A stretch of 64,000 nucleotides of DNA from Psychromonas ingrahamii 37 (lineage in GTDB: Bacteria; Pseudomonadota; Gammaproteobacteria; Enterobacterales; Psychromonadaceae). The translations under genes were made by a program, and so were the position numbers. Shown here in pieces: positions 3,545 through 21,747 of this stretch (its first letter is position 1; every line of letters begins with the position of its first letter). A model generated the notes under the pieces. That model did no database searches, had not been told where the DNA came from, and saw only the letters and a program-made list of their open reading frames with translations. The stretch is taken from positions 4,216,001-4,280,000 of the forward strand of contig NC_008709.1 of assembly GCF_000015285.1 (NCBI RefSeq), in the 5' to 3' direction.

Positions 3545-3725
3545 CGTCGTTGGTTTTCCGCCTTTGACAGCGTGTCACTTTTCTTTGAACAGCCAAAGAA
3601 AAGCTGCCCAAGCCATTTTTTTATCTTGCACTGCCCAACCACTTTTTAACGCACCAGTCCAGAATGCACATCCCTGTGCATGGCATACTTAGTGGAACCA
3701 TCCAGGTTTGACTTACTAAAGCTCT
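3545..3725 (-). repeat. Structured repeat family, copy 1 (decayed, minus orientation)
   Basis: Read on the minus strand it contains, in family order, hairpin H1 (AACCTGGATGGTT core), hairpin H2 with TGCACAGGGATGTGCA, the conserved linker TGGTGCGTTAAAAAGTGG.TTGGGCAGTGCAAGAT, hairpin H3 (CTTTTCTTT paired with AAAGAAAAG) and a short GC hairpin H4. The outer stem of H2 is partly eroded. It is inverted relative to the copy at about 5130. Confidence 0.75.
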
Positions 3726-3894
3726 TTTTCACTACTATGAGTTTGTCTGACTTCTAACTCGTTATATTTATCGACTACGCTAATCAAGCTTCTCAATAAA
3801 CTGTTTATTTAACAAACAACGAGTTGGACCTCCCGAGTTCCGTGTAAAAGACATCACCGCATGCACAAGCTCTCTGACTGCGAAGAACTGATAA

Positions 3895-4119
3895 ATGACT
3901 AGCGAATACCTGATAGGTTTTGAGTCTATTTATCATATTTCCTTTTCTTTCAACCAACAAGCGGTGGCCAGTTTTTCCATGCATATAGACTCCCTGTCGC
4001 TCTACGTCGATTTAGCAATCATCTTTCACTGGCAGTCCAATGAGATAGATAAGCTCACATTAGATGAATTATTACTATTTAGAGATGAAGCCGACAAACG
4101 CAGTAAAACAGAAGAGTAA
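3895..4119 (+). pseudogene. Relic of a P2-type phage tail protein gene (GpE/E' family)
   Basis: The C-terminal half of this 74-aa frame, VDLAIIFHWQSNEIDKLTLD and on through ELLLFRDEADKRS, matches the short P2 GpE-family signature (DIA.IFHW....L..M.L.EL..WR..A..R) from memory of that family. The N-terminal half looks unrelated or degenerate; a second ATG at 3979 would give just the conserved part. Upstream at about 3829-3890 another frame reads EFRVKDITAC, reminiscent of the P2 gpE region, suggesting a collapsed E/E' pair. No other tail gene is present, so this is a prophage remnant and not a functional module. Confidence 0.5.
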
Positions 4120-4406
4120 ATAACAAAAAATAGGCTATTTAGCTCCTTTATTTTTTTCTCGCCATAGGCCTGCTTGAATACTATGGTATTAATGTTTGGC
4201 TATTTGATAATGTACTGTTGTTTGAAATTGAACGGAATTCGCTGTTAGCGTTATGGTTTGGATTGCATTCTTATGAAATAAATATCAATTTCAAGTGCTG
4301 ATGTAAGATATCATGAAGTTTGATGTTGCTGTGATTAGATTAATTATATGTTCATCTTCGTAGAGTTTAAGAAGCTTTTCATTGTCTAAGTTGATTAGGA
4401 GCAGTT

Positions 4407-5102
4407 ATGAGTATAAATAGTAAAAAAAATAGGAATAAAAAAATAAATGATAAAAAAAATAGAGCCAAAGAAAAAGAAAAAAAGTTCAGTTTGAAGAGTG
4501 GAAAGTTGATCAGTACTGCAGATGGGCAAGTTGTTAAATACCTTTATTTAACAAAAATAGAGCATGTTGATACTTGGGTCAATGGTGGTGATATTCCAAT
4601 AGCATTAGCCAGTACATATTTGAGTGATACCCGTTCTGGAATTATGACTCCAGATGAAAATTTAATACATGAATCACCAATTCCAATTCCATCATTAAAA
4701 AATATCGGAATTAGAATTGAGAATGTACGTAGCCTAACTATGACAAATTGTCGCGGAAACGGTATGAAAATACCGAACATGAAAAATGCTCATTATTATA
4801 AACAAGATGGCTTAATACTATCGTTTTGTAATTCGTTTAATAATGAAGTTGCATATAAGCTCGATAAAAAAGCATGTGTCAAAGTGAATGATATTAAGGC
4901 ACTTTGTGGGGTGATTGATAAGCAGTTGGGGAGAAAAGGAGTTATGCGTTCATGTCAGTATACTCATAGTCACAAACGAAATCACTTTTTGAAACATGTC
5001 GATGATTCTTGGCAAGATGAATTCAGGTTGTTTTGGCTTATCAAAGAAAATAAAAGCGTGACTCTTCCTAGTGGTGTATGCGAGTTCGTTTCTGAATTTT
5101 AG
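4407..5102 (+). CDS. Protein of unknown function in the tRNA-side island (231 aa)
   Basis: The ATG follows a good ribosome-binding site (TAGGAG, 6 bases away). The first ~30 residues are extremely Lys/Asn-rich (KKNRNKKINDKK...), perhaps a nucleic-acid-binding or disordered extension. The rest is globular: KYLYLTKIEHVDTWVNGG near residues 44-61, then SFCNSF, and near the C-terminus CQYTHSHKRNHFLKHVDDSW followed by QDEFRLFW. That order (a 'Y..t....v..wl..G.i' opening, a central strand, a final K...W..E.R motif) is loosely like ADP-ribosyltransferase-fold or DUF2971-type proteins, but I cannot confirm it. It is flanked by repeat copies and duplicated tRNA sequence, consistent with mobile cargo. 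Confidence 0.7.
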   Translation: MSINSKKNRNKKINDKKNRAKEKEKKFSLKSGKLISTADGQVVKYLYLTKIEHVDTWVNGGDIPIALASTYLSDTRSGIMTPDENLIHESPIPIPSLKNIGIRIENVRSLTMTNCRGNGMKIPNMKNAHYYKQDGLILSFCNSFNNEVAYKLDKKACVKVNDIKALCGVIDKQLGRKGVMRSCQYTHSHKRNHFLKHVDDSWQDEFRLFWLIKENKSVTLPSGVCEFVSEF

Positions 5103-5106
5103 CATA

Positions 5107-5126
5107 TCACCATAAGCTTATGGTGA
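5107..5126. terminator. Perfect 20-bp palindrome just after the 231-aa gene
   Basis: TCACCATAAGCTTATGGTGA begins 4 bases after the stop codon of the 231-aa gene. It would form a hairpin with a tiny loop. There is no good T-tract, so termination is possible but unproven. Confidence 0.4.
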
Positions 5127-5129
5127 ACG

Positions 5130-5390
5130 AATTCGGGGACAGCCAAATCTTTTTATAAATAAACCAAACCAATGCGGCTACGAATTCCCCGTCGATTTTT
5201 TCTGTAATGAGCATCTATTTTAGCAAGTAGAAACAGGATCGAATTGAACGCTAGTTCAGGTTTATGAACGGGATAAGCTCTGTGTTGCCCTTCTTTCCAC
5301 TAGCCTCGGTACGCACAGTGGTGAGGCGCTTGGATGGGGCGAAAGCCTCAGTTTTCTAGCCGCAAAAGTGTGCAAAGTCTCTTATAACAT
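5130..5390 (+). repeat. Structured repeat family, copy 2 (diverged, plus orientation)
   Basis: It contains the family start ACCAATGCGGCTACGAATTC, a long-armed H1 (GTAGAAA paired with TTTCcAC around an insert holding GAACgctaGTTC) and a GCCTC/GAGGC stem in the H2 position. The linker and the H3/H4 part are lost or unrecognisable. It faces copy 1 across the 3.7-5.1 kb segment. Confidence 0.6.
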
Positions 5391-5801
5391 TTACGACTTC
5401 CTCCAACGAAACAATCAACTGAATGAGCCATTTCAATATTAATATTAATCAAAATAGCAATTCTAAAATACCTTTAAAAGATCGCGCTGATCTTTCTATA
5501 AATGTTTAAAATTAGATATATTTAGAAAAAAGACCAGAGGTAGACAGTAAATTCACCGATCAAGCAAAAACCACTCAGTTCAGTCGATGCTGGCACATAA
5601 GCTTTTACTTGGATATACACGTAATAGATTAGCGTTGTTTTGCTTCACGTACTCACAGGATATGGACAGGAGCAGTTTATGGTCACAACATTTTGCTTAT
5701 GGAGAAGTGTTCAAATTATACGGTGAAGAAGTCCTTGCTAGAACAAATAATATTAATCAAAAGAAGCCGTTTGAGTTATTTATTGTGAGAAACTTAAAAG
5801 C

Positions 5802-5838
5802 AAAAAGCCCGTAACACTTTGCAGCGTTACGGGCTTTT
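5802..5838. terminator. Strong GC hairpin with A/T-rich flanks
   Basis: AAAAAGCCCGTAACAC pairs through a short loop with GCGTTACGGGCTTTT. With A5 on one side and T4 on the other it could terminate in either direction. Its decayed partner in copy A is at 3265-3299. Confidence 0.65.
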
Positions 5839-5975
5839 CTAAATGTGGTCGGTGATAAATGGAGCCCATTGAGCGACAGCTCAGTGTATGGGCAAACTAA
5901 TTATTATTCCCTCTGGTCCAACTCTTTATAAATTTAGGAAAGCACACTAATTAAAGTGCACGCTCAAACTCCAGA

Positions 5976-6004
5976 CGAAAAAAAACCGCAACAAGTGCGG
6001 TTTC
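5976..6004 (-). terminator. Rho-independent terminator of the tRNA operon
   Basis: Read on the minus strand: AAACCGCA, a short loop, TGCGGTTTTTTTTT. It lies about 10 bases downstream of the tRNA-Pro CCA end. Confidence 0.85.
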
Positions 6005-6012
6005 TTTAAATG

Positions 6013-6089
6013 TGGTCGGTGATAAAGGATTCGAACCTTTGACCCCCTGGTCCCAAACCAGGTGCGCTACCAAGCTGCGCTAATCACCG
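6013..6089 (-). tRNA. tRNA-Pro (anticodon UGG)
   Basis: A 77-nt gene with encoded CCA. The acceptor CGGTGAT pairs fully with ATCACCG, and the anticodon arm CCTGG-TTTGGGA-CCAGG places UGG at the anticodon. The T arm contains GGTTCGAATCC. It is the last gene of an Arg-His-Pro operon; the E. coli counterpart (argX-hisR-leuT-proM) has a tRNA-Leu before it that is absent here. Fragments of this gene's 3' end recur at about 3303 and 5843. Confidence 0.97.
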
Positions 6090-6128
6090 AGAACTTATTT
6101 TACATTCTTGTTTTACATCGAGAAAAGA

Positions 6129-6205
6129 TGGGGCGAATGACGGGGATTGAACCCGCGACAACCGGAATCACAATCCGGGGCTCTACCAACTGAGCTACAT
6201 CCGCC
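6129..6205 (-). tRNA. tRNA-His (anticodon GUG)
   Basis: Acceptor GCGGATG pairs with CATTCGC (one G-U pair). An extra G at position -1 faces C73, the identity pair specific to tRNA-His. The anticodon loop TTGTGAT gives GUG, and CCA is encoded. It is 39 bases from tRNA-Pro and 40 from tRNA-Arg. Confidence 0.97.
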
Positions 6206-6245
6206 ACTAAAACTTATTATACTATTTACTTACCAACCGAAAGAA

Positions 6246-6322
6246 TGGTGCACCCGACAAGATTCGAACCTGTGACCTTTGCCTCCGGAGGGCAACGCTC
6301 TATCCAGCTGAGCTACGGGTGC
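6246..6322 (-). tRNA. tRNA-Arg (anticodon CCG)
   Basis: A 77-nt gene with encoded CCA. Acceptor GCACCCG pairs with CGGGTGC, and the anticodon arm TTGCC-CTCCGGA-GGCAA gives anticodon CCG. It is the first gene of the tRNA operon, directly behind the promoter at 6345-6373. Confidence 0.97.
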
Positions 6323-6344
6323 TCGCGTCTTTAGCGTGGCGCGA

Positions 6345-6373
6345 ATACTACTGATTGCGGCACTGTCTGTCTA
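6345..6373 (-). promoter_or_regulatory. Sigma-70 promoter of the tRNA operon
   Basis: On the minus strand TAGACA and TAGTAT are separated by exactly 17 bases and followed by TCGCGCC, a GC-rich discriminator typical of stringently controlled stable-RNA promoters. The start would fall about 10-15 bases upstream of tRNA-Arg. Confidence 0.7.
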
Positions 6374-6505
6374 GTGTTTTTTGCAAGTTTTGGTTTTTTT
6401 TAGTGTTTTTTATTGTAAATAACCTCTCACGGGAACATTAATCAGACGATTTCCGTATTTTCAGATATACTTTCAATAATTTACCCACAAATAGAGTCTT
6501 CAATT

Positions 6506-9010
6506 ATGACCCAAGACCCCTTCCTAGATCGCGAAGCGCAAACTTACGAGCATCCAGTGCCAAGTCGTGAATTTATTTTAGAATATTTAGAAAAACAAGC
6601 AAAACCTATTAGCCGTGATGCCCTGTTTAACGCTTTTTCTTTAAGCGGTGAAGAGGAAGCCGAGGGGTTGCGTCGTCGTTTAAAAGCGATGGAACGTGAT
6701 GGGCAATTAGTCTGGTGCCGTAATGCGACTTATGCACTCCCGGACAAATTGAATCTAATTAAAGGTAAAGTGATTGGCCACAAAGATGGTTTTGGTTTTT
6801 TGAAAACTGAAGAAGAAGGTGCCGATCTTTTTTTACCCGCACATCAAATGCGTTTACTCTTTCACGGCGATAAAGTCCTTGTCCAACCGGTTAAAGTTGA
6901 TTCGCGAGGTCGCACCGAAGCGCGTTTTGTACGTTTATTAGAAGAACGTAAAGAACCTATTGTCGGCCGTTATTTTGTCGAAGACGGCATCGCTGTCGTG
7001 GTGCCCGATGATTCTCGCATCAATCAAGATATTCTCATCAATCAAGATAACAATCTCGGTGCCCGCCACGGACAAATAGTCGTAGTGGAAATTCTCCAGC
7101 GTCCAAAACCTCGTTTGACTGCAAAAGGTAAAATCACTGAAATACTGGGTCAAGATATGGAACCCGGTATGGAAGTTGAGGTTGCACTGCGTACTCATGA
7201 TATCCCGCATCAATGGCCTGAAGGTTTAGACAAAGAATTAGAAAACTTTACTGAAACTGTGCCTGAAGAAGCGATACAAGGGCGTGTAGATTTACGCCAA
7301 TTACCACTGGTCACAATAGATGGCGAAGATGCGCGCGATTTTGATGATGCGGTTTTCTGTAAAGCTGAAGCCGGTGGCGGCTGGCGTCTGTGGGTAGCTA
7401 TTGCAGACGTAAGCTATTACGTTCGACCCGGTACTATTTTAGATAAAGAAGCGATTAATCGTGGTAACTCGGTCTATTTCCCCGACCAGGTTGTGCCTAT
7501 GTTGCCGGAAATATTATCTAATGGATTGTGCTCGTTAAATCCGCAGGTCGATCGTTTATGTATGGTCAGTGAAATGGTTATTTCTAAAGCCGGACTGCTC
7601 ACGGATTACAAATTCTATGAAGCAGTAATGAATTCTCATGCACGCTTTACTTATACTAAAGTAGCGGCCATTTTAGAGGGTGATCAGACACTGCGCGAGC
7701 AGTACAAACCTTTAGTGCCTCATATCGAAGAGTTAGAGCACCTTTATAAAGCCTTCAAGCGCGCACGCAAGATTCGAGGTGGAATGGAGTTTGAAACCTT
7801 AGAAACGCGTTTTATTTTTGATCAAAACCGTAAAATAGAATCTATCGAGCCAATAACACGTAACGATGCGCATAAGATCATAGAAGAATGCATGATTCAG
7901 GCAAACGTTGCTTCGGCACGTTTAATTGGCAAGGCAGAAGCTGCTGCGTTATACCGCGTTCATGAAACTCCCAGTCAGGAAAAATTAGTTAACTTCCGTT
8001 CATTTTTGTCAGAGCTTGGTTTAAGCCTTGCCGGTGGAGAGAAACCGGCACCGCGTGATTATGCGGCATTAGCTGAAGAATTTGCGGGTCGTGAAGACAG
8101 TGAGCTTTTACAAACCATGTTATTACGCTCAATGAAACAAGCTGTCTATCAAGATGAAAATCTCGGACACTTTGGCTTGGCGTTAGAAGAGTACGCTCAC
8201 TTCACCTCTCCTATTCGTCGTTACCCGGATCTGATTTTACACCGTGCCATTAAATATTTAATCGAACATCAGGCAAAGGGTCAGTTGAAATCAAAATGGA
8301 CCAATACCGGCGGATATCATTATCTACATGAAGAGATGGGTGCCTTAGGCGAGCATTGTTCAATGACTGAACGCCGCGCCGATGATGCCACTCGTGATGT
8401 AGGTGACGCTTTAAAATGTGAATATATGCAGGATCATGTTGGTGATGTAATGCACGGCACTATTGCCGCTGTCACCAACTTTGGTTTCTTTGTACGCTTA
8501 ACGGGTATTCAAATCGATGGCTTGGTCCATGTGACAAGCTTACTGTCTGATTATTATATCTTTGATGCAGGCAAACAAACCCTTAAAGGTGAGCGTACGG
8601 GACGTACCTTTAGGATCGGTGATGCATTAGATGTGAAAGTGTTGTCAGTTAATTTAGATGATAAAAAAATCGATTTTGAATTAGCGGATCAAGCGGCAGC
8701 GGGACAACGAAAACGAGCTCAAAATACGGCCGCGCGTGAAAACGATCGCCCGATAGATAAACGGGCACGGTCAAAAGCGGCGGGCAAAGGTCGCGCAAAT
8801 GATAACGCTAAAAAAAGCGATCAGCCGGTTGAAAAAGAACCCGCTAAGCAAGAGCAAAAAGCCAACAAGCCCAAAAGAAAAAGAACGATAAAACAGGGCG
8901 AAAAAAACACCGCATCATCAAAAACAAAAAAAACCACGGCAACAGCTAAAAAAGTAGGTCGTGCTGATCGCCGTAATAAAATAAAACAAGCAAACAAAAT
9001 AAATAGCTAA
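6506..9010 (+). CDS. rnr: Ribonuclease R
   Basis: An 834-aa 3'-5' exoribonuclease of the RNB family, which degrades structured RNA and takes part in rRNA/tRNA quality control and cold adaptation. Domain order: N-terminal helix-turn-helix (about 20-85), two cold-shock domains ([13 protein letters not shown] near 92), catalytic RNB domain with [14 protein letters not shown] near 268-281 (the acidic metal-binding cluster), S1 domain ([15 protein letters not shown] near 650), then a ~100-residue Lys/Ala-rich basic tail. It is about 20 residues longer than the E. coli enzyme, mostly in the tail. rlmB follows after 106 bp, as in E. coli. Confidence 0.97.
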
Positions 9011-9092
9011 CAGCTAGGAGCTACGAGCGGCGAGCTAGGAGATACAAGCTTTCTAGCTTTCAGGCGTTCGAGCTGCGAGTCTTGAGCTATTA
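9011..9092. repeat. Heptamer satellite between rnr and rlmB
   Basis: Bases fall into 7-bp steps such as AGCTAGG AGCTACG AGCGGCG AGCTAGG, with occasional 8-mers. It starts immediately after the rnr stop codon. The same class of satellite occurs at seven other intergenic sites in the window. Confidence 0.7.
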
Positions 9093-9116
9093 TCAACAAA
9101 TAGAATTAGAGAAAAT

Positions 9117-9857
9117 ATGAGCAAAAGTGAATTACTTTATGGCATCCATTCAGTTGATGCCTTATTAGAGAAACAACCAGAACGTTTTATTGAAGTTTAT
9201 GCATTAAAAGGACGTGAGGACGAACGCCTTAATAATATTATTGCTAAATTAAATGAATGGGGTATTTCCGTCCAATTAATGAACCGTAAAGCCATGGATG
9301 ATAAGTCGGAAGGAGAGCAACACCAGGGTATTATCGCCCGCGTTAAAACGGCCAAGGTCTTAAACGATAATGACTTAGACAGTTTATTGGAGAGTTTAAC
9401 TGCACCGCCTTTTTTACTTATTTTAGACGGTGTAACGGATCCGCATAATCTAGGTGCATGTCTGCGTAGTGCAGATGCAGCCGGTGTGCATGCAGTGATT
9501 ATCCCTAAAGATAATTCAGCAAGCTTAACCCCCGTAGTGCGTAAAGTCGCCTGTGGAGCAGCAGAATCAGTGCCTTTAATTCATGTCACTAATCTGGCTC
9601 GAGCGATGCGTTCATTACAGGACAAAGGTGTCTGGATTTATGGTACAGCGGGAGAAGCCACACAAAGCCTCTATGACTGTAAACTAGAAGGCGGCATGGC
9701 ACTTGCGATGGGCGCGGAAGGTAAAGGATTACGCCGTTTAACACGTGAACATTGTGACCAGCTGATTAAACTGCCAATGGCGGGAGCCGTTTCCAGCTTA
9801 AATGTCTCGGTAGCAACCGGTGTCTGCTTGTTTGAAGTGGTTCGTCAGCGCGGATAA
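9117..9857 (+). CDS. rlmB: 23S rRNA (guanosine-2251-2'-O)-methyltransferase RlmB
   Basis: A 246-aa SpoU-family 2'-O-methyltransferase that modifies Gm2251 of 23S rRNA using SAM. The N-terminal substrate-binding domain ([12 protein letters not shown]) is followed by the knotted SPOUT domain with motif 1 [17 protein letters not shown], motif 2 [11 protein letters not shown] and motif 3 [17 protein letters not shown]. Length matches E. coli RlmB (243 aa). It is separated from rnr by a heptamer satellite but probably still cotranscribed. Confidence 0.97.
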
Positions 9858-9867
9858 CAAAATTTTC

Positions 9868-9938
9868 GGCTATCAGCTATCAGCTATCAGCTATCGGCTG
9901 ACGGCTGATAGCCGATAGCGGCAAGGCTTCGAGCTTTG
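9868..9938. repeat. Heptamer satellite downstream of rlmB
   Basis: The clearest example: GGCTATC AGCTATC AGCTATC AGCTATC GGCTGAC GGCTGAT AGCCGAT AGC. The later units are near reverse complements of the earlier ones, so the tract can also fold. Confidence 0.8.
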
Positions 9939-10004
9939 ACCTAGTGTCCTCTTTCAAGCAGATATAATGCTTCGCAAATATTCCCTTATTATCAAAATAA
10001 CTGC

Positions 10005-10033
10005 TTGCGCCAACAAACGCTAAACTGTACACT
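10005..10033 (+). promoter_or_regulatory. Probable promoter of rpsF-priB-rpsR-rplI
   Basis: TTGCGC and TACACT are separated by exactly 17 bases, about 100 bases upstream of rpsF. Each box matches consensus at 4 of 6 positions. The position fits a ribosomal-protein operon with an untranslated leader. Confidence 0.45.
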
Positions 10034-10130
10034 TTACCGCCTTAAATCAACCACCTTTTTTGTTCCTTGCTTCTATTGGTACGGTTGAGCCAAATCAAGA
10101 AGCTAATAACCCGTAAGGAGCGATTTTTAT

Positions 10131-10532
10131 ATGCGTCATTATGAAATCGTATTTATGGTTCACCCTGATCAGAGTGAACAAGTTAATGGTATGATTGAAC
10201 GTTACACAGCCTCTATCACAGAAGCTGGCGGTACAGTTCATCGTCTAGAAGATTGGGGCCGTCGTCAATTGGCTTACCCAATCAACAAACTACACAAAGC
10301 ACACTATGTTCTTATGAACATTGAAGCTGGACAGAACGTAATCGATGATTTGGAAAATGCTTTCCGTTTCAACGATTCAGTGATCCGTAACATGATCATG
10401 CGTACTAAAACTGCTGTGACTGAAGTTTCTGTAGTGGCAAAAGCAAGAGAAGAGCGTGTTGAACGTGCTCCTCGTGCTCCACGTCCAGAAGTGAAAGCAG
10501 AACCAGAAGCAGAAGCAACAGCTGAAGCATAA
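10131..10532 (+). CDS. rpsF: 30S ribosomal protein S6
   Basis: A 133-aa protein of the small-subunit platform, binding 16S rRNA together with S18. The S6 fold is clear from [18 protein letters not shown] at the start and [20 protein letters not shown]. The tail is a low-complexity Ala/Glu/Pro extension, like the glutamate-rich tail of E. coli S6. GTAAGGAGCG lies just upstream of the ATG. It is first of four genes (rpsF-priB-rpsR-rplI). Confidence 0.98.
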
Positions 10533-10540
10533 GCTACTTA

Positions 10541-10846
10541 GTGACTGATAACTTTTTGCGACTTTCGGGTGTAGTAACTGAAAAGCCTACATTTAAAAAA
10601 AGTCCTAGCGGTTTACAACACTGTAATTTAGTGATTGAACATCGTTCTATGCAAGAAGAGGCTGAATTACCACGCAACGTTTTTTGTTATATGCCCGTTG
10701 CAGCAAGTGGAATACTTGCCAGTCAGTTAAAAGATAAATTATCGAAAGGGATGCAAATAAGAGTAAGTGGTTTTATCACTTTTCATCAAAGCGCAAATAA
10801 GCTTGGAAAACTCGTGTTGCATGCTCAGTACATAGAACAAATTTGA
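10541..10846 (+). CDS. priB: Primosomal replication protein N (PriB)
   Basis: A 101-aa OB-fold single-stranded-DNA-binding protein, a dimer that bridges PriA and DnaT in replication restart. Features visible are the SSB-like opening NFLRLSGVVTEKPTFKKSPS and the HCNLVIEHRS strand. It begins at the GTG at 10541, 8 bases after the rpsF stop. The position between rpsF and rpsR is conserved in gammaproteobacteria. Confidence 0.95.
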   Translation: MTDNFLRLSGVVTEKPTFKKSPSGLQHCNLVIEHRSMQEEAELPRNVFCYMPVAASGILASQLKDKLSKGMQIRVSGFITFHQSANKLGKLVLHAQYIEQI

Positions 10847-11083
<237 letters not shown>

Positions 11084-11099
11084 ACAGGAGCTATAGATT

Positions 11100-11552: not shown

Positions 11553-11581
11553 TTCAGTTTTGATAAACTAAGATTATAAAA

Positions 11582-11609: not shown

Positions 11610-11740
11610 GCCTAAAATCCCCCCTTCTCTTTTCTTTTTTTCCCTGACGGTGACTTTCTTTTCCAGATCCTTTCCTTAAAAATTACGCTGCTGACTTTTT
11701 TGTTTGTAGGCTTTCGCTTGCAGCTGATGGCTAAATTTTC

Positions 11741-11980
11741 ATTGTTGGTCTTCCGCCCTGACGGCGTGTTACTTTTTCTCAACAGCAAGAAAAGAGTAAC
11801 CAAAAAGTGCCGTTCCGAGACGTTTTTTATTCTTGCACTGCCCAACCGCTTTTTAACGCACCACCTCAGACATTACGTCCCTGTACTGGCTGAGGTTAGA
11901 GAAAACATCCATGTTTTCTCTTGCTAAAGCACTTGTTCAGCACAAGAAAAACGTACGGAAATTTTCGTAGCCACATTGGT
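11741..11980 (-). repeat. Structured repeat family, copy 3 (complete, minus orientation)
   Basis: All four hairpins are present on the minus strand: H1 at 11899-11920 (GAGAAAACAT/ATGTTTTCTC, perfect), H2 outer stem ACCTCAG/CTGAGGT (11863-11869 with 11890-11896), linker TGGTGCGTTAAAAAGCGGTT, H3 around TTGCTGTTGA, and H4 CGCCgtcaGGGCG. The unit ends with CCAATGTGGCTACGAAAATT. It faces copies 4 and 5 across the KAP ATPase gene. Confidence 0.85.
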
Positions 11981-12092
11981 TTGATTATCTGCTCAATAAT
12001 TTCATTTTCGAAATTTTTGAGATTACACCGTGTATAAACAATCAGTTATGCTATGTTGATTGAAATACTCAATACCCCCTTCGAAGGTTGCC

Positions 12093-13832: not shown

Positions 13833-13847
13833 CTAATCATAATGAAA

Positions 13848-13953
13848 TAAACCAATGCGGCTAGGTGATCCCCTTCCATTTTTCTTGCAATGAACAAATG
13901 CTTTAGCAACAGAAATCATGGAGCGAATTGAACGGCAGTTCAGGATTATGAGC
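13848..13953 (+). repeat. Structured repeat family, copy 4 (5' half only)
   Basis: It starts CCAATGCGGCTAGG and runs through TAGCAACAGAAATCATGGAG and the GAACggcaGTTC hairpin, then stops abruptly where copy 5 begins (GAAGATAAATTGGACACCC). Its 3' half has been lost, apparently by a copy inserting into or recombining with it. Confidence 0.8.
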
Positions 13954-14245
13954 GAAGATAAATTGGACACCCATACTTTTTTGCGAATAATCTAACCACT
14001 GCGGCTAGGCAATTTCCGTACGTTTTTCTTGTCTGAGAAATCACTTTAGCAAAGGAAATCATGGATGATTTCATTAGGCTCGGCTCTGCACATGGATGTG
14101 CTGTCCGAGCCGGTGCGTTAAGAAGTTATTGAGCAGACAAGAATAAAAAACGTCTCGGAACGGCATTCTTTTGGTTACTTTTCTTTTGCTGTTGAAAGAA
14201 AAGTAACCCGCCGTCAAAAGCGGAATACCAACAAATAACGTTAAA
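13954..14245 (+). repeat. Structured repeat family, copy 5 (complete reference copy)
   Basis: Order: GAAGATAAATTGGACACCC lead, CTGCGGCTAGG box, H1 14055-14072 (GAAATCATGGATGATTTC), H2 14077-14111 (GGCTCGG/CCGAGCC enclosing GCACATggATGTGC), linker GGTGCGTTAAGAAG, H3 14175-14206 (12-bp perfect stem TTACTTTTCTTT/AAAGAAAAGTAA), H4 14208-14223 (CCGC/GCGG), and CGGAATACCAAC tail. Contains no credible protein frame. Confidence 0.85.
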
Positions 14246-14390
14246 CCAAGCGCTTACAAGCGAAGGCCTATGACAAACCAATTCGGCTAAGCTCTGACTG
14301 TTCAGTTACTTGCTAGTGTTTACGCTAGATATCGCTTTCAAAGGAAGTCATCGGAGAGGTTTGTTGGGCTGTCATTATGAATATAAATGT

Positions 14391-14429
14391 CTCCTTCGAG
14401 AAAAAGTAACATAGCTTTAATCGAAGGAG
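14391..14429. promoter_or_regulatory. 9-bp inverted repeat covering a Shine-Dalgarno-like sequence
   Basis: CTCCTTCGA (14391-14399) is exactly complementary to TCGAAGGAG (14421-14429). The right arm is the AGGAG that precedes an ATG at 14437 opening a 16-codon frame (14437-14487), which overlaps the end of the DHH gene on the other strand. Alternatively the hairpin is simply the minus-strand terminator of the DHH gene, though it lacks a T-tract. Confidence 0.35.
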
Positions 14430-14463
14430 TTTTACGATGATTTATCGTTTAGTGTTGAAACGA

Positions 14464-15396
14464 TTAACCATCTGCATTAATAGCTGAAATTAGTTCTGCA
14501 AGACCAGCTTCACTTTGATCATGTGGAACTTGACAAGTCCCCGCTGCATTATGTCCGCCACCATTGTATTTAAGCATTAACTCGCCAACATTGGTTTTTG
14601 AACTACGGTCAAAAATAGATTTACCGGTAGCAAAAACTGTATTTTGCTTTTTAAGGCCCCACATAATATGAATTGAAATATTACATTGTGGAAATAATGC
14701 ATAAATAACAAAACGATTACCTGAGTAGATAATTTCTTCTTCTCTTAAATCAAGAATAACTAAGTTACCATGAACCGTAGCACAACGTTTAATCTGCTCT
14801 TTAAATTTTTCTTCGTGCTCAAAGTAAAGATCGGTTCGTTCTTTAACATCAGGAAGTTCTAGTATCTGGTCAATGCTGTGATCTTTCCCAAATTCAATTA
14901 GAGCCATCATGAGTTCGTAATTTGAGATACGAAAATTTCTGAAGCGACCTAAACCTGTTCGAGAATCCATAATGAAATTAAGCAGTTCCCAGCGTTTAGC
15001 ATGTAACACTTCTTCTTTATTGAATTGAGCAGAGTCAGCTTTATCTACTGCATTCATCATACTTTTCCAGCTAGCGGGGAAGGTTTTTTCTCCGCCGTAA
15101 TAATCGTAAACAACGCGAGCAGCTGAAGGAGCATCAGGATCGATAATATGATTATCTCGTTTTTCATTACGCAGTGTTTCACTATGATGGTGATCAAAGG
15201 AAAGATGAATACCGTCAACATAAGGTAAGTTGGTCGAAATATCATCTGGCCCTACTTCAATAATTCCGTCTTGCATATCTTTAGGGTGAACAAAAAGAAT
15301 GTCGTCAACTAAATTAATATTTTTGAGTAAAATAGCACACACTAAACCATCAAAATCACTACGAGTAACTAAACGATATTTTTTATTATCCGACAT
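14464..15396 (-). CDS. DHH-family phosphoesterase
   Basis: A 310-aa DHH/DHHA1 protein. Metal-binding motifs are DFDG (residues 14-17) and DHHH (68-71); the C-terminal DHHA1 signature is GGGHNAAGTCQ near 280. This arrangement is shared by nanoRNases, cyclic-dinucleotide phosphodiesterases and exopolyphosphatase-like enzymes, and the sequence alone does not fix the substrate. It is shorter than RecJ and lacks its extra domains. It stands alone, flanked on both sides by same-orientation copies of the structured repeat. Confidence 0.88.
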   Translation of the reverse strand: MSDNKKYRLVTRSDFDGLVCAILLKNINLVDDILFVHPKDMQDGIIEVGPDDISTNLPYVDGIHLSFDHHHSETLRNEKRDNHIIDPDAPSAARVVYDYYGGEKTFPASWKSMMNAVDKADSAQFNKEEVLHAKRWELLNFIMDSRTGLGRFRNFRISNYELMMALIEFGKDHSIDQILELPDVKERTDLYFEHEEKFKEQIKRCATVHGNLVILDLREEEIIYSGNRFVIYALFPQCNISIHIMWGLKKQNTVFATGKSIFDRSSKTNVGELMLKYNGGGHNAAGTCQVPHDQSEAGLAELISAINADG

Positions 15397-15473
15397 CTAT
15401 TATCTCCATTAGATATAATTTATTTTTATTATTAAACATTCGCTCTTTATTAAAACATACTAACAGATAAATT

Positions 15474-15890
15474 GAAGATAAATTGGACACCCATACCTTT
15501 TTACGAATAATCTAACCAATGCGGCTAGGAAATCCCCTTCCATTTTTCTTGCAATGAACAAACGCTTTAGCAACAGAAATCATAGAGCGAATTGAACGGC
15601 AGTTCAGGATTATGAGCGGGCTAAGCTCTGCGTGCCCTTGTTGATTTCTGTAAGTTCAGCTCTGCACATGGATGTGCTGTCCGAACTGGTGCGTTAAAAG
15701 CATTTGGGCAGTGCGAGATAAAAAGATGGCTAGGGGTGACGCTTTTGCCTACTTTTTTTCGGCATTTAGAAACATAACTTATTCGAACTGCGAAACTGCG
15801 TTTCGGTTTCTCAACGTTTACTCGCCGTCAGGGCGAAACCACCAACAACGAAAGTTAAACCAACCGCCCACAAACGAAAACCAACAAACA
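15474..15890 (+). repeat. Structured repeat family, copy 6 (long-H1 variant)
   Basis: H1 here is 15574-15650: CAGAAATCA and TGATTTCTG pair perfectly over an insert that itself contains TGAACggcaGTTCA. H2 is 15653-15687 (AGTTCAG/CCGAACT around GCACATggATGTGC). H4 reads TCGCCgtcaGGGCGA. Between H3 and H4 lies CGAAACtgCGTTTCG, also present in copy 7. Confidence 0.85.
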
Positions 15891-16203
15891 AGCCAATGCA
15901 GCTAGATGATCCCCCTCCATTTTTCTTGCAATGAACAAACGCTTTAGCAAGTGAAACCCGGACGGTTTCACCAGGTCTGGCATGCACAGGGATGTGCATT
16001 CCGGACTGGTGCGTTAAAAAGCGATTGGGCAGTGCAAGATCAAAAAATGGCTAGGGGTGGCACTCTTTTGCTGTTGAAAGAGCATGACTCCCTCGAACTG
16101 CGAAACTGCGTTTCGGTTTCTCATCATCTACCCGCCGTCAAAAGCGGAATACCAATAAATAAAGTTAAACCAAGCGCTTACAAGCGAAGGCCAACAAACA
16201 AGC
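15891..16203 (+). repeat. Structured repeat family, copy 7
   Basis: It directly follows copy 6, in tandem. H1 is 15951-15971 (GTGAAACC/GGTTTCAC), H2 15975-16006 (GTCTGG/CCGGAC around TGCACAgggaTGTGCA), linker TGGTGCGTTAAAAAGCGATT, H3 16063-16082 (CTCTTT/AAAGAG), H4 CCGC/GCGG. Open frames across it (for example 15951-16391) are by-products of the repeat and not genes. Confidence 0.85.
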
Positions 16204-16317
16204 TAAATAGTTTCACTAACATTCCCACGTGGAGCGTAAAGAAAAAAGACAAAAAAACCCCAGGGTTAAGTGAGGCTCAATATCAAAATAGCAAATTGAG
16301 GCCTAAAGCCTCAAACC

Positions 16318-16356
16318 ATTATTTTGTTTGTGGACGCATATGCGGAAATAACAATA
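16318..16356 (-). pseudogene. Duplicate of the lysS 3' end
   Basis: On the minus strand this encodes [12 protein letters not shown]-stop; the true lysS end at 21748 encodes [11 protein letters not shown]-stop. The two DNA copies differ at only three positions in 37, two of them synonymous. The 90 bp beyond it (16226-16317) also resembles the region downstream of lysS (AAAAAAGACAAAAAAA, GAGGCTC). It lies immediately beside the proW end and marks one edge of the transporter segment. Confidence 0.85.
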
Positions 16357-16361
16357 GTTCA

Positions 16362-16417
16362 GATTGGACACCCATACCTTTTTACGAATAATCCAACCAA
16401 TTCGGCTACGCAATCCC
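16362..16417 (+). repeat. Structured repeat family, copy 8 (leading 55 bp), overlapping the proW stop codon
   Basis: TTGGACACCCATACC...ACGAATAATCCAACCAATTCGGCTACGCAATCCC is the usual left end of the family. The CTA at 16406-16408 inside it is the complement of the proW stop TAG, and the next three proW codons (encoding GIA) also come from repeat sequence. Confidence 0.75.
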
Positions 16418-18466
16418 TAACACTTTCTTACGCTGCTCTGCCCAAGTATGGATCAAATGGTCTACTGCCAAGCCGATAAAGGCGACGCATAAGCCGAGCA
16501 CAATGCCTTGGCCCATAGCGTTGGCTTGAGACAAGGATTGCATGATCAGCTGACCTAAGTCGTCAGTACCGATAAAGGCGCCGATAATAACCATAAACAA
16601 AGCGAAGATAACGGTTTGGTTAATGCCCAACATGATGTGTGGGAACGCCAAAGGTAGTTCAATTTTTAATAAACGCTGCATGCGGTTAACCCCTGACATG
16701 GAGCCTGCTTCTTGCAAGGATTTAGGCACGTTACTCAACCCTTCTACGGTGTAACGTGTGGCAGGGATAGTAGCGTATACGATCACCGCAATAAGCACTG
16801 ATAAATCACTCACGCCAAACAACATGATGACGGGAATTAAGTAGACGAACGACGGGAATGTCTGGAAGGTGTCACAAACCAGCAATATAACTTTAGTTGC
16901 TCGGGGGGTTCGAGAGCACAAAATGCCAACACTGCAACCAATAGTAACAGAAATGATGACCGCGAAGGTGGTCATATAGGCTGTAATGAGGGCTTGGTCC
17001 CACCAGGGTGTTAACGCAATAAAGGCAATCAAGGCTGTCACAATAATAGCTGAGCGAATGCCTCCAACAATGTAACCGGTGCCTGCAACTAGAAAGAGGG
17101 TTGCAGCGACTGGCATCGATAGATAAGCCTCTTTCATGGGCATCAAAATTGAGGTGATCATGAAGAAGTTGAAGCTTTGCACGGCGTCGTAAGTGTTGGT
17201 GATGATCCAGTCAACGATAAAGTCCCAGAACTTTTCGGTAGTCAACCCTTGTGAATCATTGATGAAGTAGAGGTAGTTAGCCTTGTCTGGGAAAACCACC
17301 GTCACAGCGTAGGCAATAGCAGAGGTGACGATCAAAATTCCCAAGAAGGCGAGCGAATGCTTGTGACGCAAATGGAAGGGTAATTCAGCAAAGTAATCGC
17401 TCTGCTTGTTAGCCCAGGCCAGGGATAACTTATCCAAAACCACAGCAATCAATACAATAGACACACCCAGTTCGAGGGCCTGGCCTATATTGAGCATGTT
17501 CAATGACACCAGTAAGTCGTAGCCCAACCCCTTTGCACCAATAAAAGAGGCGATGACGGCCATGGCCAAACACTGCATAATAACCTGGTTAACGCCGATC
17601 AGAATGTCATGGCGTGCTGTTGGAATGAGCACCCTGAACATCAGTTGGCGTGCGTTGCAGCCACTCATCATGCCAGCCTCCAACACCTCCGGAGAGACTT
17701 TTTTAAGGCCTAAAATAGTTAAGCGGATCATTGGGGGAGTGGCGAAAATAATTGTTGAAATAGCACCCGCATGGTCACCAATGCCAAAGAATACTACCAC
17801 TGGGATTAAGTAAGAGAAGTGAGGCATGGATTGAGCCACGTTTAACAGTGGCGTCAGGATGGACTCGAAGCTTTTGTTCTTAAAGGCCAGTATACCTGAG
17901 GTTAATCCCAGGAAAACCGACACGGGCACCGCTACTAACACAAAGGAAAGGGTTTGCATGGCGGGTGTCCACTGACCAAATACAGCAATGTAAAGGGTGC
18001 TGGTGCCGGCTAAAATAGACAGGCTACGGCCCCCAAGATAGTGGCCAATTAAAAAGGCACCCGCAGCCACCGCTGGCCATGGCAGTGCTGGGATGCGAGC
18101 CCATTCGTTTGCGCTGATAAATTCCCAGCTGGTAAAAGCCACCACGGTTTTAACGCCACCTAATAGCAGTTCTCGAATCAAATTAATGCTAAAGAGAATC
18201 ACGCCAGACAGGCCGCGCGTAAACTCTTGTATCATGGTCGATTCTTCGGTGATGTCTAACTCAGGATCGTAAATCTCTACGACCCAAAAGTCATCAATAA
18301 GGAACTTAAGACCGTCGTTAACAATGTCAGGCAACAGCCAGAAACTGGTCTCTTGTAGGCGCCATAAGTTACCACCAGTGGCGGGGTCGATGACGATTAC
18401 AAGGGCAAAGAACACCGCCAATAAAGCGACAAACTGAGTCCATTTATGTCCGGTAAAATATTGCAT
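16406..18466 (-). CDS. proW: Glycine betaine/proline ABC transporter permease, duplicated (two permease units fused)
   Basis: A 686-aa inner-membrane protein with two tandem BPD_transp_1 permease units. Each carries its EAA-type loop: EAGMMSGCNARQLMFRVLIP followed by ASFIGAKGLG (about residues 260-315), and EAGSMSGVNRMQRLLKIELP followed by GAFIGTDDLG (about 585-640). E. coli ProW (354 aa) has one and dimerises, so this protein probably supplies both halves of the channel. Its ATG overlaps the proV stop (TAATG). The stop codon and last residues derive from a repeat copy. The DNA is visibly richer in G and C than the flanking core genes, suggesting transfer. Confidence 0.9.
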   Translation of the reverse strand: MQYFTGHKWTQFVALLAVFFALVIVIDPATGGNLWRLQETSFWLLPDIVNDGLKFLIDDFWVVEIYDPELDITEESTMIQEFTRGLSGVILFSINLIRELLLGGVKTVVAFTSWEFISANEWARIPALPWPAVAAGAFLIGHYLGGRSLSILAGTSTLYIAVFGQWTPAMQTLSFVLVAVPVSVFLGLTSGILAFKNKSFESILTPLLNVAQSMPHFSYLIPVVVFFGIGDHAGAISTIIFATPPMIRLTILGLKKVSPEVLEAGMMSGCNARQLMFRVLIPTARHDILIGVNQVIMQCLAMAVIASFIGAKGLGYDLLVSLNMLNIGQALELGVSIVLIAVVLDKLSLAWANKQSDYFAELPFHLRHKHSLAFLGILIVTSAIAYAVTVVFPDKANYLYFINDSQGLTTEKFWDFIVDWIITNTYDAVQSFNFFMITSILMPMKEAYLSMPVAATLFLVAGTGYIVGGIRSAIIVTALIAFIALTPWWDQALITAYMTTFAVIISVTIGCSVGILCSRTPRATKVILLVCDTFQTFPSFVYLIPVIMLFGVSDLSVLIAVIVYATIPATRYTVEGLSNVPKSLQEAGSMSGVNRMQRLLKIELPLAFPHIMLGINQTVIFALFMVIIGAFIGTDDLGQLIMQSLSQANAMGQGIVLGLCVAFIGLAVDHLIHTWAEQRKKVLGIA

Positions 18467-19536
18467 TAGGTTTGGCTCTCATCTGATGTATTCACTGGCA
18501 TGCTGTTAGCTTCATCAAACAAGACGTCCATAATGATGTTGCGGTTTAACACACCAACAATATTACCTTCTGCAGCAGTGACAGCCACTGGATGCACCTC
18601 GGTTAGCACGGGTTTTGCTACTGTGTCTATAATGGCGTGTTCAGATACAGTGATGTCACTCATCTCTACAGAGGCATCATATTCTTCCATGATGGTTTGG
18701 CAGGAGAGTACGCGCTCGCGTGGCACGCCACGGGTAAATCTGGCGACGTATTCCGTGGCGGGGTTGAGTACGATATTGCCCGGGGTATCAATTTGTTCGA
18801 TGACACCATCTTTCATAATGGCGATGCGGTCGGCAAGGCGGAGCGCTTCATCAAAGTCGTGGGTAACGAATAATATGGTCTTATGTAATACAGTCTGTAA
18901 ACGTAAGAACTCGTCTTGCATCTCCCTGCGAATAAGAGGGTCCAGAGCTGAGAAGGGCTCATCGAGGAACCAGATATCAGGTTCTACAGCCAATGAACGA
19001 GCAATGCCGACACGTTGTTGCTGGCCACCAGAGAGCTGGCGTGGGAAGTAATTCTCACGACCGGTGAGCTCGACTAAATTTACCATATCCATCGCACGGT
19101 CCATGCTGTCATTGGTGCTCATACCTTTTACTTGTAATGGTAAGGCAATATTTTCTAGCACTGTTTTGTGAGGAAGGAGAGCAAAACTTTGGAATACCAT
19201 GCCCATTTTGTTACGACGAATGTTGATAAGTTCTTTTTCATTCATGGCAAGCAGGTCTTCACCATCAATAAATATATCGCCTGCAGTAGTGTCGAACAGG
19301 CGTGAAATACAGCGCAAAAGGGTTGATTTACCAGAGCCTGATAGGCCCATGATGACGAGTATCTCACCTTTGTGCACTTCAAAAGAGGCATTGTTAACGC
19401 CGATGACACATCCGGCTTCAAGTAATGATGCTGTTTCTACTTTTCCGTCTGACTGTTCCAGTATTTTTGCAGCGTTGTCGCCAAAAATTTTATAGACAGA
19501 CTCACACTTAATGACCGGCTGAGGTGGTATTGGCAT
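18466..19536 (-). CDS. proV: Glycine betaine/proline ABC transporter ATP-binding protein
   Basis: A 356-aa ABC ATPase of the ProV/OpuAA type energising osmoprotectant uptake. Visible motifs: Walker [10 protein letters not shown] (about residue 69), Q-loop [15 protein letters not shown], signature [15 protein letters not shown], Walker [14 protein letters not shown] and the H-loop FVTHD. The ~90-residue C-terminal extension looks like a shortened CBS-type region ([17 protein letters not shown]), the part that senses ionic strength in OpuA-type transporters. It is translationally coupled to the permease; proX lies 247 bp upstream. Confidence 0.93.
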
Positions 19537-19783
19537 AATTAAATTCCTATAAAAAGAGGTGCTAAAAAATGTGTTTGTTGGCGCGGGATCAATGGGTCTG
19601 TCGGACTAACAAGCGCAATAGATTATTGTGCTACTGAGTCATCGGCTCTGCTGTCACGGTGAAAAAATAGACCCAATAAACAGCGACCTTGGCTAAATAA
19701 AGCATCAAGGTCTCTGGTCTTGTATTGAATAACGAACCACAGGCCTAACCTGAATGCCGCGCACTCAGGTCAGAGGGTTTGGC

Positions 19784-20716
19784 TTAGAGCCAGCTTTTCC
19801 ATTTTGCTTCGTTGTCAGCCAGCCATTTAGTAGCGGCTTCTTCGTGGCTCATACCATCGATGTCAACCAATGCAGCCATGTTGCCGATATCACCTTTAGT
19901 AAAGGAGATTTGGTTAAAGATTTTGTAAGCTGCTGGCCATTTTGCAGGCATTTGATAATAAGCGGCCTTCTTCAACCAACCCGCCGCTGGAGAGCCACAT
20001 TTGCCATCACCACCAGCTGAAACCTTACAGCCATCGCTATACGCGGGGAATTCAACGAAGCTGCCACCGTCACCGGCATCGGTGAAGTTAGGTGACCAGT
20101 TAAAGACCACAACCGCACGGTTGTCTTTAGCTGCCGACTCCAGTTCTGCCCAAAGTGCACCAGATGACCCGGCAAACTTAGCGGTAAAATTCATGTCAAG
20201 TGCTTCGATGCGGTCTAGGGTTTCTTGGCCATGCCAGTCCATAGGCCCATCGAGATAGCGCCCCTTGCCACCACTGCCGGCTGTTGCAAACAACTCGGAG
20301 CAATCGTTTAGTGCTTTCCAGGAAGGTAGGCCAGGGCATAGCTCGCCAACATAGGCAGGATACCACCACTCTTCCTGAGAAACAGCAGCGTGCTTGCCTA
20401 CATCAATGATGCCGCCAGCGTCTAAGGCGTTGTTGAAGGACTTACCAAAAGTAGACTGCCATATTTCGTGAGCAATAGTGACGTCACCGTTACGAATCGA
20501 TTCGTAAACCGCCTGGCTATCAGCGGGTACATAAGAAACATTGTCGCCAATGCTTTCGAAAATTCCACCGATAACGTATGCCATGGTGATTTGGCTCGTC
20601 CAGTTATGGGTAGGAATAACAATAGGTTCTTTCGAGTCTTCTGCTTGGGCTACAGTAGCGCCAAGTACTAGTGAGCTAACTGCAGCGGCAGTAGCTAGTT
20701 TTTTTAAAAATTTCAT
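19784..20716 (-). CDS. proX: Glycine betaine-type substrate-binding protein (OpuAC family)
   Basis: A 310-aa periplasmic protein with a classical signal peptide (MKFLKKLATAAAVSSLVLGA, cut after AQA). The mature part is an OpuAC-type betaine-binding domain rich in Trp (HNWTSQ, EIWQSTF, EEWWYPAY, NWSPNF), consistent with an aromatic cage for a quaternary ammonium. Four cysteines (ELCPG, NDCSE, DGCKV, GKCGS) could form two disulfides. It is the first gene of proX-proV-proW on the minus strand. The exact ligand (betaine, proline betaine, choline) cannot be told by eye. Confidence 0.92.
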   Translation of the reverse strand: MKFLKKLATAAAVSSLVLGATVAQAEDSKEPIVIPTHNWTSQITMAYVIGGIFESIGDNVSYVPADSQAVYESIRNGDVTIAHEIWQSTFGKSFNNALDAGGIIDVGKHAAVSQEEWWYPAYVGELCPGLPSWKALNDCSELFATAGSGGKGRYLDGPMDWHGQETLDRIEALDMNFTAKFAGSSGALWAELESAAKDNRAVVVFNWSPNFTDAGDGGSFVEFPAYSDGCKVSAGGDGKCGSPAAGWLKKAAYYQMPAKWPAAYKIFNQISFTKGDIGNMAALVDIDGMSHEEAATKWLADNEAKWKSWL

Positions 20717-20775
20717 ATATATTTCCAGATAGTATTGTTATCAGTAGGTAATCATTACTTTCTTTCTTTCTTCGA

Positions 20776-20961
20776 TTACAGGCGAAGTTCTGTTTCGTTA
20801 TCTTCCGCACTAAAGCCAGATCTCCTTAGGTAACTGAGATCAACTCTTGTAACCCTTTTTCTGGCTGCTCTGTCGGTGCGGTAGCGGAAGAGCCATCTTT
20901 GGGCTGCTTCAAAAGCACGTAATTGGGCAAAGCCGCTTGGGCCAGCCACTTTGAATGGCAA
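20776..20961 (-). CDS. Possible small DUF1127-like protein
   Basis: A 61-codon frame upstream of proX in the same direction, opening with TTG. The second half, RWLFRYRTDRAARKRV followed by LSYLRRSGFSAEDNETEL, resembles the DUF1127 pattern (W..r.r...L..L....L+d.G.s.ed...E). It has no strong ribosome-binding site. It may be a real small basic protein that travelled with the transporter genes, or chance. Confidence 0.35.
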   Translation of the reverse strand: MPFKVAGPSGFAQLRAFEAAQRWLFRYRTDRAARKRVTRVDLSYLRRSGFSAEDNETELRL

Positions 20962-21340
20962 TTCTAAAGCTCATAATGACGACTGTTTTACAGGCGTTGT
21001 ATCGTTAGCCAGACAAGAGCATGATGGGGCGACGATTGAATGCGGAAAAGCGCGCACTCTAACCGGTAACAGTTAAGCTATGAGGTTCCGCAATGAGACG
21101 CACTAAACTCAGGTTAACCTATGGTGCATATGATGAAGGCAGGATCTGTGTGGAGAAACAGAAGGCCGGGGGTGGGCAGACCACCGATCTGAATACGAGA
21201 CTTCGAGAAACGCAGGAGGGAAGCGCTCGAATGGCTCAAGCATAAGAAAATACTTGGTGACTCGCATGTCAGCGGGTCATATCATAACACATTTAATAAG
21301 AATAGCGGGACCACCCGAATAGCAGGACGAATAGCACAGA
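20962..21340. other. Gene-free, GC-richer stretch upstream of the transporter operon
   Basis: No credible gene. Base composition resembles the proXVW segment more than the AT-rich host intergenic DNA, so this is probably the remainder of the acquired fragment, up to the repeat copy at 21341. The proX promoter should lie within 20733-20990 but I cannot fix it. Confidence 0.5.
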
Positions 21341-21470
21341 CTGGACACCCATACTTTTTTATGAATACCCCAACCAATGCGTCTAGGTGAAAGCCGTACT
21401 GGTGCGTTAAAAAGAGGTTGGCAGTGCGAGATCAAAAATGGTAAGCGAAAGCTTACTACCAACCAAATCG
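21341..21470 (+). repeat. Structured repeat family, copy 9 (internally deleted)
   Basis: It starts CTGGACACCCATACTTTTTTATG...CCAATGCGTCTAGGTG, then jumps directly to CGTACTGGTGCGTTAAAAAGAGG and GGCAGTGCGAGATC. H1 and the left arm of H2 are deleted and H3/H4 are lost. It lies on the lysS side of the transporter segment, in the same orientation as copy 8 on the other side. Confidence 0.75.
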
Positions 21471-21695: not shown

Positions 21696-21747
21696 TTTTG
21701 AATTTAACTGATAGCGGACAGCTAATGACTGAAAGCTATCTTCACAG

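Follow-up and report, generated by a model that had tools for sequence, protein, structure and literature searches.

Inverted pairs of TwoAYGGAY repeats around variable genes in Psychromonas: a candidate non-autonomous element with CsrA-type hairpins

Introduction

A stretch of 64,000 nucleotides from the genome of Psychromonas ingrahamii 37 (NC_008709.1, positions 4,216,001–4,280,000; hereafter the window) carries, between its positions 3545 and 21470, several copies of a structured repeat that we identify as TwoAYGGAY (Rfam RF01731), an RNA family known from bacteria but not explained so far. TwoAYGGAY was first described in a 2010 screen, whose table rates it as probably an RNA and marks cis-regulation 'n', probably not; no function is stated in the accessible part of that report (PMC2864571). 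Rfam types the family as Cis-reg, within clan CL00106. Three window repeats match its full model above the gathering score, with two AYGGAY-loop hairpins inside an outer stem, but the repeats differ from the family as described in their longer arm with extra hairpins on the 3′ side, in 5′-to-5′ pairing around variable genes, in numbers of up to 37 matches per genome and in a position that does not look cis-regulatory, the last in agreement with the table of 2010. No description of paired TwoAYGGAY copies or of genes bracketed by them was found in the titles and abstract openings of open-licence full texts in PMC. What is already known is the RNA core; what is new is the dimer and what the dimer encloses.

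Several other described systems are comparable. CsrA-binding small RNAs of the CsrB/RsmZ type present GGA in hairpin loops with CA...YG around it. The repeats share this arrangement, but have only two hairpins per unit, many dispersed copies and no known promoter or control, and their binding of CsrA is only predicted. Miniature inverted-repeat transposable elements (MITEs) and mobile insertion cassettes are non-autonomous and have inverted terminal regions, between which a central space may hold a gene. The pairs studied here appear similar in all three respects, but no target-site duplication or related transposase was found, and their ends are structured RNA-like units. Repetitive extragenic palindromes (REPs) organized as REPINs or BIMEs and served by REP-associated tyrosine transposases (RAYTs) are likewise structured extragenic repeats in inverted doublets, in which one polarity prevails, and are enriched between convergent genes. 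In contrast to their palindromes of 20–40 nucleotides (nt) (PMC3733652), the present arms extend over a few hundred nt, the gaps between them, which contain genes, span roughly 100 nt to several kb, and the fit to RAYT numbers is poor. The R178 and R200 repeats of Pseudomonas fluorescens, also intergenic and dispersed and with a published tail-to-tail ('tail-repeat-tail') bias, are similar by description (PMC2718517).

Our preferred reading, to which we assign a probability of about 0.48, is that TwoAYGGAY belongs to a non-autonomous inverted-dimer repeat whose transcript would carry paired CsrA-type hairpins.

Results and discussion

Identity and spread of the repeat

In a covariance model search, three window repeats matched the full 168-position RF01731 model above its gathering score of 43 bits (Table 1), and 11 matches above this score were found in the whole genome of 4,559,598 bases. 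A second covariance model, R1, which we built from 31 copies of the inner core, gave 25 genomic hits at E≤1, 23 of them at E<1e-4. R1 recovers five cores in the window, two of which (starting at 3646 and 15566) fall below the RF01731 gathering score, and partial arms or fragments are present at three further places. An earlier inspection of the letters and open reading frames (ORFs) of the window (the sequence-only reading) had claimed at least five structured copies without recognizing the family, and its count holds. It had also stated that no copy encodes a protein; none is seen, and a protein product was rejected as the ORFs across the repeats resemble chance frames. Related genomes, where that reading had suggested looking, carry the family too: of 24 Psychromonas genomes searched, 20 have RF01731 matches, with numbers running from 0 to 37 per genome (at most the best 38 candidates being scored in each), and 22 of 99 genera sampled across the order have them as well.

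A selected fold

The two adjacent hairpins with AYGGAY-type loops, H1 and H2, are enclosed by a long outer stem, P1, as in RF01731. P1 had been overlooked previously, while the four H1 stems, the four H2 stems and the long form of H3 quoted in the sequence-only reading were all recovered in place. Paired positions change together between copies, as had been proposed. In a set of 31 copies, pairing holds in 92.5% of cells, and both partners vary in 19 of 28 pairs; cells changed on both sides number 168, against a mean of 43.8 in shuffles, and the signal is lost when the partners are slid. Covariation also survives phylogeny. The kind of tree-aware test for which the sequence-only reading had asked was passed: run on 121 unique cores (MAFFT sequence alignment, FastTree tree, reshuffled substitutions, 40 replicates; our own R-scape-like script, not R-scape), it returned H1/H2 base pairs as all of the top 17 among 2,556 column pairs, 14 of them with E<0.05, on a set of cores gathered with structure-aware models (RF01731 and R1), which favours copies that still pair.

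The 19 helix pairs contain 81 G-U cells against 32 A-C cells (p 5e-6), an excess that fits the strand bearing the GGA loops being the one that folds, and an arm of 281 nt (14000–14280) has an RNA folding z of -4.5. The fold is selected. Covariation, the G-U excess, Rfam membership and the presence in most of the genus all support the earlier proposal of a selected RNA or single-stranded DNA structure, whether a non-autonomous hairpin element or a transcribed RNA. The 'almost invariant' single-stranded linker of that proposal was overstated, as six window copies retain GGTGCGTTAA, four retain GGGCAGTGC and only three GGGCAGTGCAAGA. Its 60-base insert in H1 is real and lies in the H1 loop of the copy with core 15566–15697, at a size of about 55 nt.

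This insert is itself a short repeat with two small hairpins. It has been inserted repeatedly in the H1 loop, right after ATGGA (window 15585–15640; locus L090, 8636–8692 and 8780–8841), and occurs on the P1′ side in other copies; it resembles a second small loop-targeting element.

Arms and their polarity

Alignment of 19 copies from two genomes extends well beyond the RNA core. A hairpin-like stretch lies on the 5′ side, and 3′ of the Rfam model follow H3 (TTACTTTTC...GAAAAGTAA), H3′ (CGCC...GGCG) and often more, except in one copy without the 3′ part (G021 C122:19201) and in several with inserts there. The Rfam model, judged by this alignment, covers a portion of a longer arm that continues 3′ in additional hairpins. 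Similar ends are found outside the genus: both arms of ten inverted pairs, drawn from three other families, finish with an H3-like hairpin, a hairpin of the CGCC/GGCG type and a GAAAC- or GGAAC-like stretch, the most divergent ends being those of two pairs in genome G115. The inverted repeat detected by blastn in these ten dimers is 262 nt long (78%) in one, 279 nt (81%) in another and 38–243 nt in the remaining eight. Terminal inverted repeats of the kind known from MITEs are thus present in the ten dimers compared, and TwoAYGGAY appears to be one of the two arms in a larger repeat of mirror-image form.

Inverted arms face each other in a preferred way. Among 200 listed RF01731 matches, neighbours within 15 kb run in the same direction in 41 cases and are inverted in 18, and in 18 of 18 inverted pairs, all in Psychromonas, the 5′ ends face each other, although three sites recur in more than one genome, which leaves about 14 independent pairs. 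Outside Psychromonas, 10 of 10 inverted pairs among 150 listed copies are also 5′-facing; f30 contributes seven, f18 two and f33 one, bringing the four families together to 28/28 among the matches listed. R1 copies of at least 40 bits in the fetched Psychromonas loci, many of which were picked for holding pairs, give 21/21. The fixed-polarity inverted doublet of REPINs is hence found in the listed Rfam matches, with up to five exceptions once weak R1 copies and one pair at L142 are counted, and the rule is strong for good copies lying close together, not absolute. A division of left and right arms into two fixed subtypes, in the manner of transposon ends, was not supported on inspection by eye.

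Genes between the arms

We examined 21 Psychromonas brackets, of which three have no more than a partial arm at one end, and searched nearly all of their ORFs of at least 90 aa against Pfam, at least two small ones excepted. Matches to defence or toxin-antitoxin families occur in 11 of the 21 and none in nine, while the remaining one has a gene related, at 62% identity, to one of the defence-matched genes. By these similarities, about half of the bracketed contents resemble anti-phage or toxin-antitoxin systems. They include a KAP NTPase matching PDC-S49, a PADLOC candidate defence family; a GmrSD-like gene with a SIR2-like gene; CAP12-TIR, which shares its 10-kb bracket with unrelated genes; SocA/Panacea (from Pfam only); SLATT; AbiJ-like, HEPN and GmrSD genes together; PDC-S20; PDC-S31, in two brackets; a PtuA-like ATPase with PDC-M01B; and a type I-B retron reverse transcriptase with an ATPase-Toprim gene (G011, L126 2902–5258). 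When ten proteins were preselected on a Pfam defence hint, eight matched PADLOC, compared with two of ten others. Three of ten flanking control genes also matched by E-value, namely two orthologous methyltransferases (mad2, E ~1e-17 and ~1e-19, with Pfam for one) and a sensor gene (~1e-5), and these were not counted as defence genes. Outside the genus, in family f30, a 590-nt gap between inverted TwoAYGGAY arms holds a NIPSNAP gene (L231 2720–3028).

Two different MntA/HepT pairs were also seen between direct TwoAYGGAY arrays (L021 5595–8817) and were excluded from the bracket count.

The content between arms differs among genomes at four sites. At the first, between rplI and lysS, where both flanks are common, the KAP gene of P. 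ingrahamii 37 is replaced by a SocA/Panacea pair in G021, the nearest relative used; in G015 the two RF01731 matches stand 363 nt apart, and the gap holds a remnant of 86 residues that shares 64% identity with the KAP gene's end. Relatives of this gene in G020 and G011 each adjoin one repeat copy at other sites. The second site lies beside genes for a pseudouridine synthase and isocitrate dehydrogenase (on the same side) and, with both flanks common, contains ORFs of 258 and 231 aa in the window and four other genes in G021. Beside a methyltransferase gene, the third site holds the PtuA-like system in G019 and the retron in G011, the common flank being shown on the right only. The fourth, beside ribB, holds ORFs of 313 and 167 aa in G020, the PDC-S31 gene in G003, and the 62%-identical relative with another gene in G014; both flanks are common for G020 and G003, and only the right one for G014.

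Placement between convergent genes

The gene on the 3′ side of an array is convergent with it in 55 of 77 arrays when ORFs of at least 120 aa are considered and in 47 of 71 at 180 aa or more, while the orientation on the 5′ side is even (43 divergent, 39 on the same strand). Outside the genus, 10 of the 17 arrays flanked by genes on both sides sit between convergent genes. We found no consistent place relative to a regulated gene, which counts against the Cis-reg label and not against membership of the family. Terminator-like hairpins facing antisense are present in the 3′ flank of 23/84 copies, against 5–7/84 elsewhere, with about nine of the 23 inside the arm. Insertion always antisense to a terminator was considered and rejected, since such hairpins are enriched but many cases are simply convergent intervals.

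These placements would fit a history in which no active element existed and old repeats had been kept where genes converge, serving as bidirectional terminators or as neutral spacers, with variable genes gathering where insertions are tolerated. The tail-to-tail bias published for other repeats (PMC2718517) and the variability of the rplI–lysS interval in genomes where it lacks repeats are consistent with that account. We nevertheless judge it very unlikely, because conserved GGA loops with compensating stems, and the polarity of the listed pairs, are left unexplained by it.

Candidate movers

The sequence-only reading had suggested a linked transposase of the TnpA_REP or Y1 type. Under a single-stranded DNA model of the REPIN or IS200-IS605 type, the hairpins would be the substrate on which a Y1 (RAYT-like) transposase acts in trans, and the inverted pair would be the minimal mobile unit. 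The arms are rich in hairpins, their opposed pairs of fixed polarity recall REP doublets (PMC3390384), RAYT-like matches occur in 19 of the 24 Psychromonas genomes, and some of these genes adjoin TwoAYGGAY copies. The numbers of the two track each other poorly, with a weak positive trend (Spearman 0.40, p 0.054, 24 genomes) and outright mismatches such as G022 (12 RAYT, 0 TwoAYGGAY) and G009 (0 RAYT, 10 TwoAYGGAY). Moreover, the RAYT gene sits in a repeat of its own, of about 1.28 kb, and an R1 match is nearby at only 3/30 RAYT loci. A RAYT/Y1 transposase as the mover is therefore not supported as tested, a weak trend remaining, and we hold the single-stranded DNA model to be very doubtful.

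The 1.28-kb repeat was met at four loci (L048, L049, L052 and L053), each with a copy of a 326-aa RAYT-like Y1 gene, one of them with stops; extra partial copies also exist.

Spread on plasmids or phages was likewise rejected on the trial made: a single arm of 291 bases had no blastn match (E 1e-5) in the plasmid collection, nor any in the phage collection.

CsrA-type loops and the proposed element

The motif CA(N)GGAYG is kept in the loops of both hairpins while the stems vary. Of the 121 unique cores, 106 carry CA-N(0-2)-GGA-N-G in H1, 116 carry it in H2 and 104 have it in both hairpins; for the stricter ACA-N(0-1)-GGA the numbers are 59 for H1 and 86 for H2. In the window, all six occurrences of ACANGGAYGT fall in H1 or H2 loops (0.61 expected), in copies that are related and so are not six independent cases. 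The published CsrA consensus is RUACARGGAUGU, in which ACA and GGA are reported as 100% conserved and GGA lies in a hairpin loop (PMC4347634), and CsrA binding has been proposed for TwoAYGGAY by a motif study (PMC4333381). As a sequence, the loop motif fits this site, with GGA in hairpin loops and ACA...UGU around it, as expected of a CsrA sponge.

The same loops, with stems free to vary, are what would be expected of a stand-alone CsrA-binding decoy, whose copies would be small RNA genes or elements of 3′ untranslated regions that titrate CsrA, pairing and bracketing being side effects of copy number. This is in line with the proposal of PMC4333381 and with the bias of wobble pairs to the plus strand, and in Serratia control of CRISPR-Cas by the Rsm/Csr pathway has been reported (PMC8450108). 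A decoy leaves three observations unexplained, namely the single polarity in 28/28 listed pairs, the conserved arm end outside the RNA core and the range from 0 to 37 matches among the genomes of one genus, and we consider it unlikely.

In the inverted-dimer repeat that we prefer, each arm is built as P1 - [H1, H2] - P1′ - H3 - H3′ and ends in a short GGCGAAAC-like sequence, and the basic unit would consist of two arms with their 5′ ends inward and their 3′ ends outward around variable DNA, often one gene or a small operon. The dimer is probably the unit that spreads. Arms would spread in the genome with no transposase of their own; they settle mostly where genes converge, and tandem arrays of them occur too. 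Because paired arms share polarity and similar sequence, homologous recombination between them could occur and swap the bracketed genes. H1 and H2 are paired CsrA-type GGA-loop hairpins about 30 nt apart, and given these loops, a transcript across the arm is predicted to bind or titrate CsrA; we infer that such a read-through transcript exists and does so.

The transcript, its CsrA binding and transposition are predicted from sequence, and several observations weigh against this reading. Besides the scope of the polarity counts given above, exceptions appear when weaker copies are included: an R1 tally of 123 rows gives 23 5′-facing pairs and two exceptions (2/25 inverted pairs), and adding the five weakest rows (17.7–20.5 bits; 128 rows) gives 24 and four (4/28). 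One strong pair outside the genus, at L142, has its 3′ ends facing across 7.2 kb, so that with it and the weak copies there are up to five. In several copies an insert destroys the H1 loop, and these cannot hold both GGA sites. No target-site duplication is evident by eye in the flanks inspected, no clean empty site was isolated, and no autonomous partner or transposase with the same ends was met. In a reverse test, an R1 match lay within about 1.5 kb of 4/19 PF03235 loci in the genus against 3/30 RAYT control loci, a weak result; of the four, two are partial matches at the edge of a piece and two were already among the brackets. Finally, the rplI–lysS regions fetched from 19 more genomes (G023 and G001 left out) contain 0 R1 matches. 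Both genes are present in 15 of the 19, while L190, L194 and L208 show no lysS within 10 kb and L193 spans only 976 bases. As other ORFs lie between the two genes in those 15 regions, repeats are not needed for variability there, and the idea that the pair causes variability is weakened.

The inverted-dimer repeat gives TwoAYGGAY a physical context, the bracketing of changeable genes, and the dimers offer a handle both for locating single-system defence loci and for probing the CsrA idea. If arm exchange were true, defence genes would turn over without a recognizable transposon or integrase. A bolder extension, in which the dimers would be the ends of an undescribed class of gene cassettes, lacking an enzyme of their own for their structured arms, carrying single defence systems, swapping these at fixed chromosomal sites and tied to the Csr network of the host through their hairpins, seems distinctly improbable to us.

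Features of the window

The repeats and bracketed genes of the window are listed in Table 1.

Table 1. TwoAYGGAY arms, fragments and bracketed genes in the window
Feature	Position	Strand	Evidence and remarks
TwoAYGGAY arm, left of the pair around the 231-aa ORF	3545..3731	-	Core 3646-3720, R1 61.2 bits; 3582-3731 matches 15932-16081 inverted, 83%
Bracketed ORF, 231 aa	4407..5102	+	Without match in Pfam (E≤0.001) or PADLOC
Partial right-hand arm	5137..5292	+	blastn and repeat search; no R1 match; limits approximate
Left arm of the KAP-gene pair	11620..11990	-	RF01731 11804-11970 (73.4 bits); core 11853-11928 (R1 90.8 bits); 3′ end faces rplI; outer limits approximate, from alignment
Bracketed KAP-family P-loop NTPase, 590 aa	12060..13832	+	PF07693 E 4.5e-5; PADLOC PDC-S49 E 2.1e-22
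Arm fragment, 5′ part with H1-loop insert	13841..13954	+	13850-13954 is 96% identical to 15514-15618
Right arm of the KAP-gene pair	13990..14280	+	RF01731 14002-14171 (73.9 bits); core 14045-14121 (R1 93.3 bits); H3 14175-14206
Further arm	15474..15885	+	Core 15566-15697, R1 71.4 bits; insert in H1 loop
Insert of ~55 nt in H1 loop, a separate short repeat	15585..15640	+	Same loop position in other copies
Further arm	15886..16210	+	RF01731 15903-16066 (52.2 bits); core 15943-16017 (R1 81.3 bits)
Arm fragment beside lysS	21332..21437	+	Repeat search and blastn

Two minor repeats were also observed. Two short stretches from the lysS end (46 nt, 76%; 43 nt, 88%) occur on both sides of an ABC operon of the glycine-betaine type (16406–20716), within 16233–16361 and 21647–21790; the operon is absent at the same place in G021. 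The tRNA cluster at 6016–6322 contains sequence partly repeated near 3400 (3400–3478 against 6066–6156).

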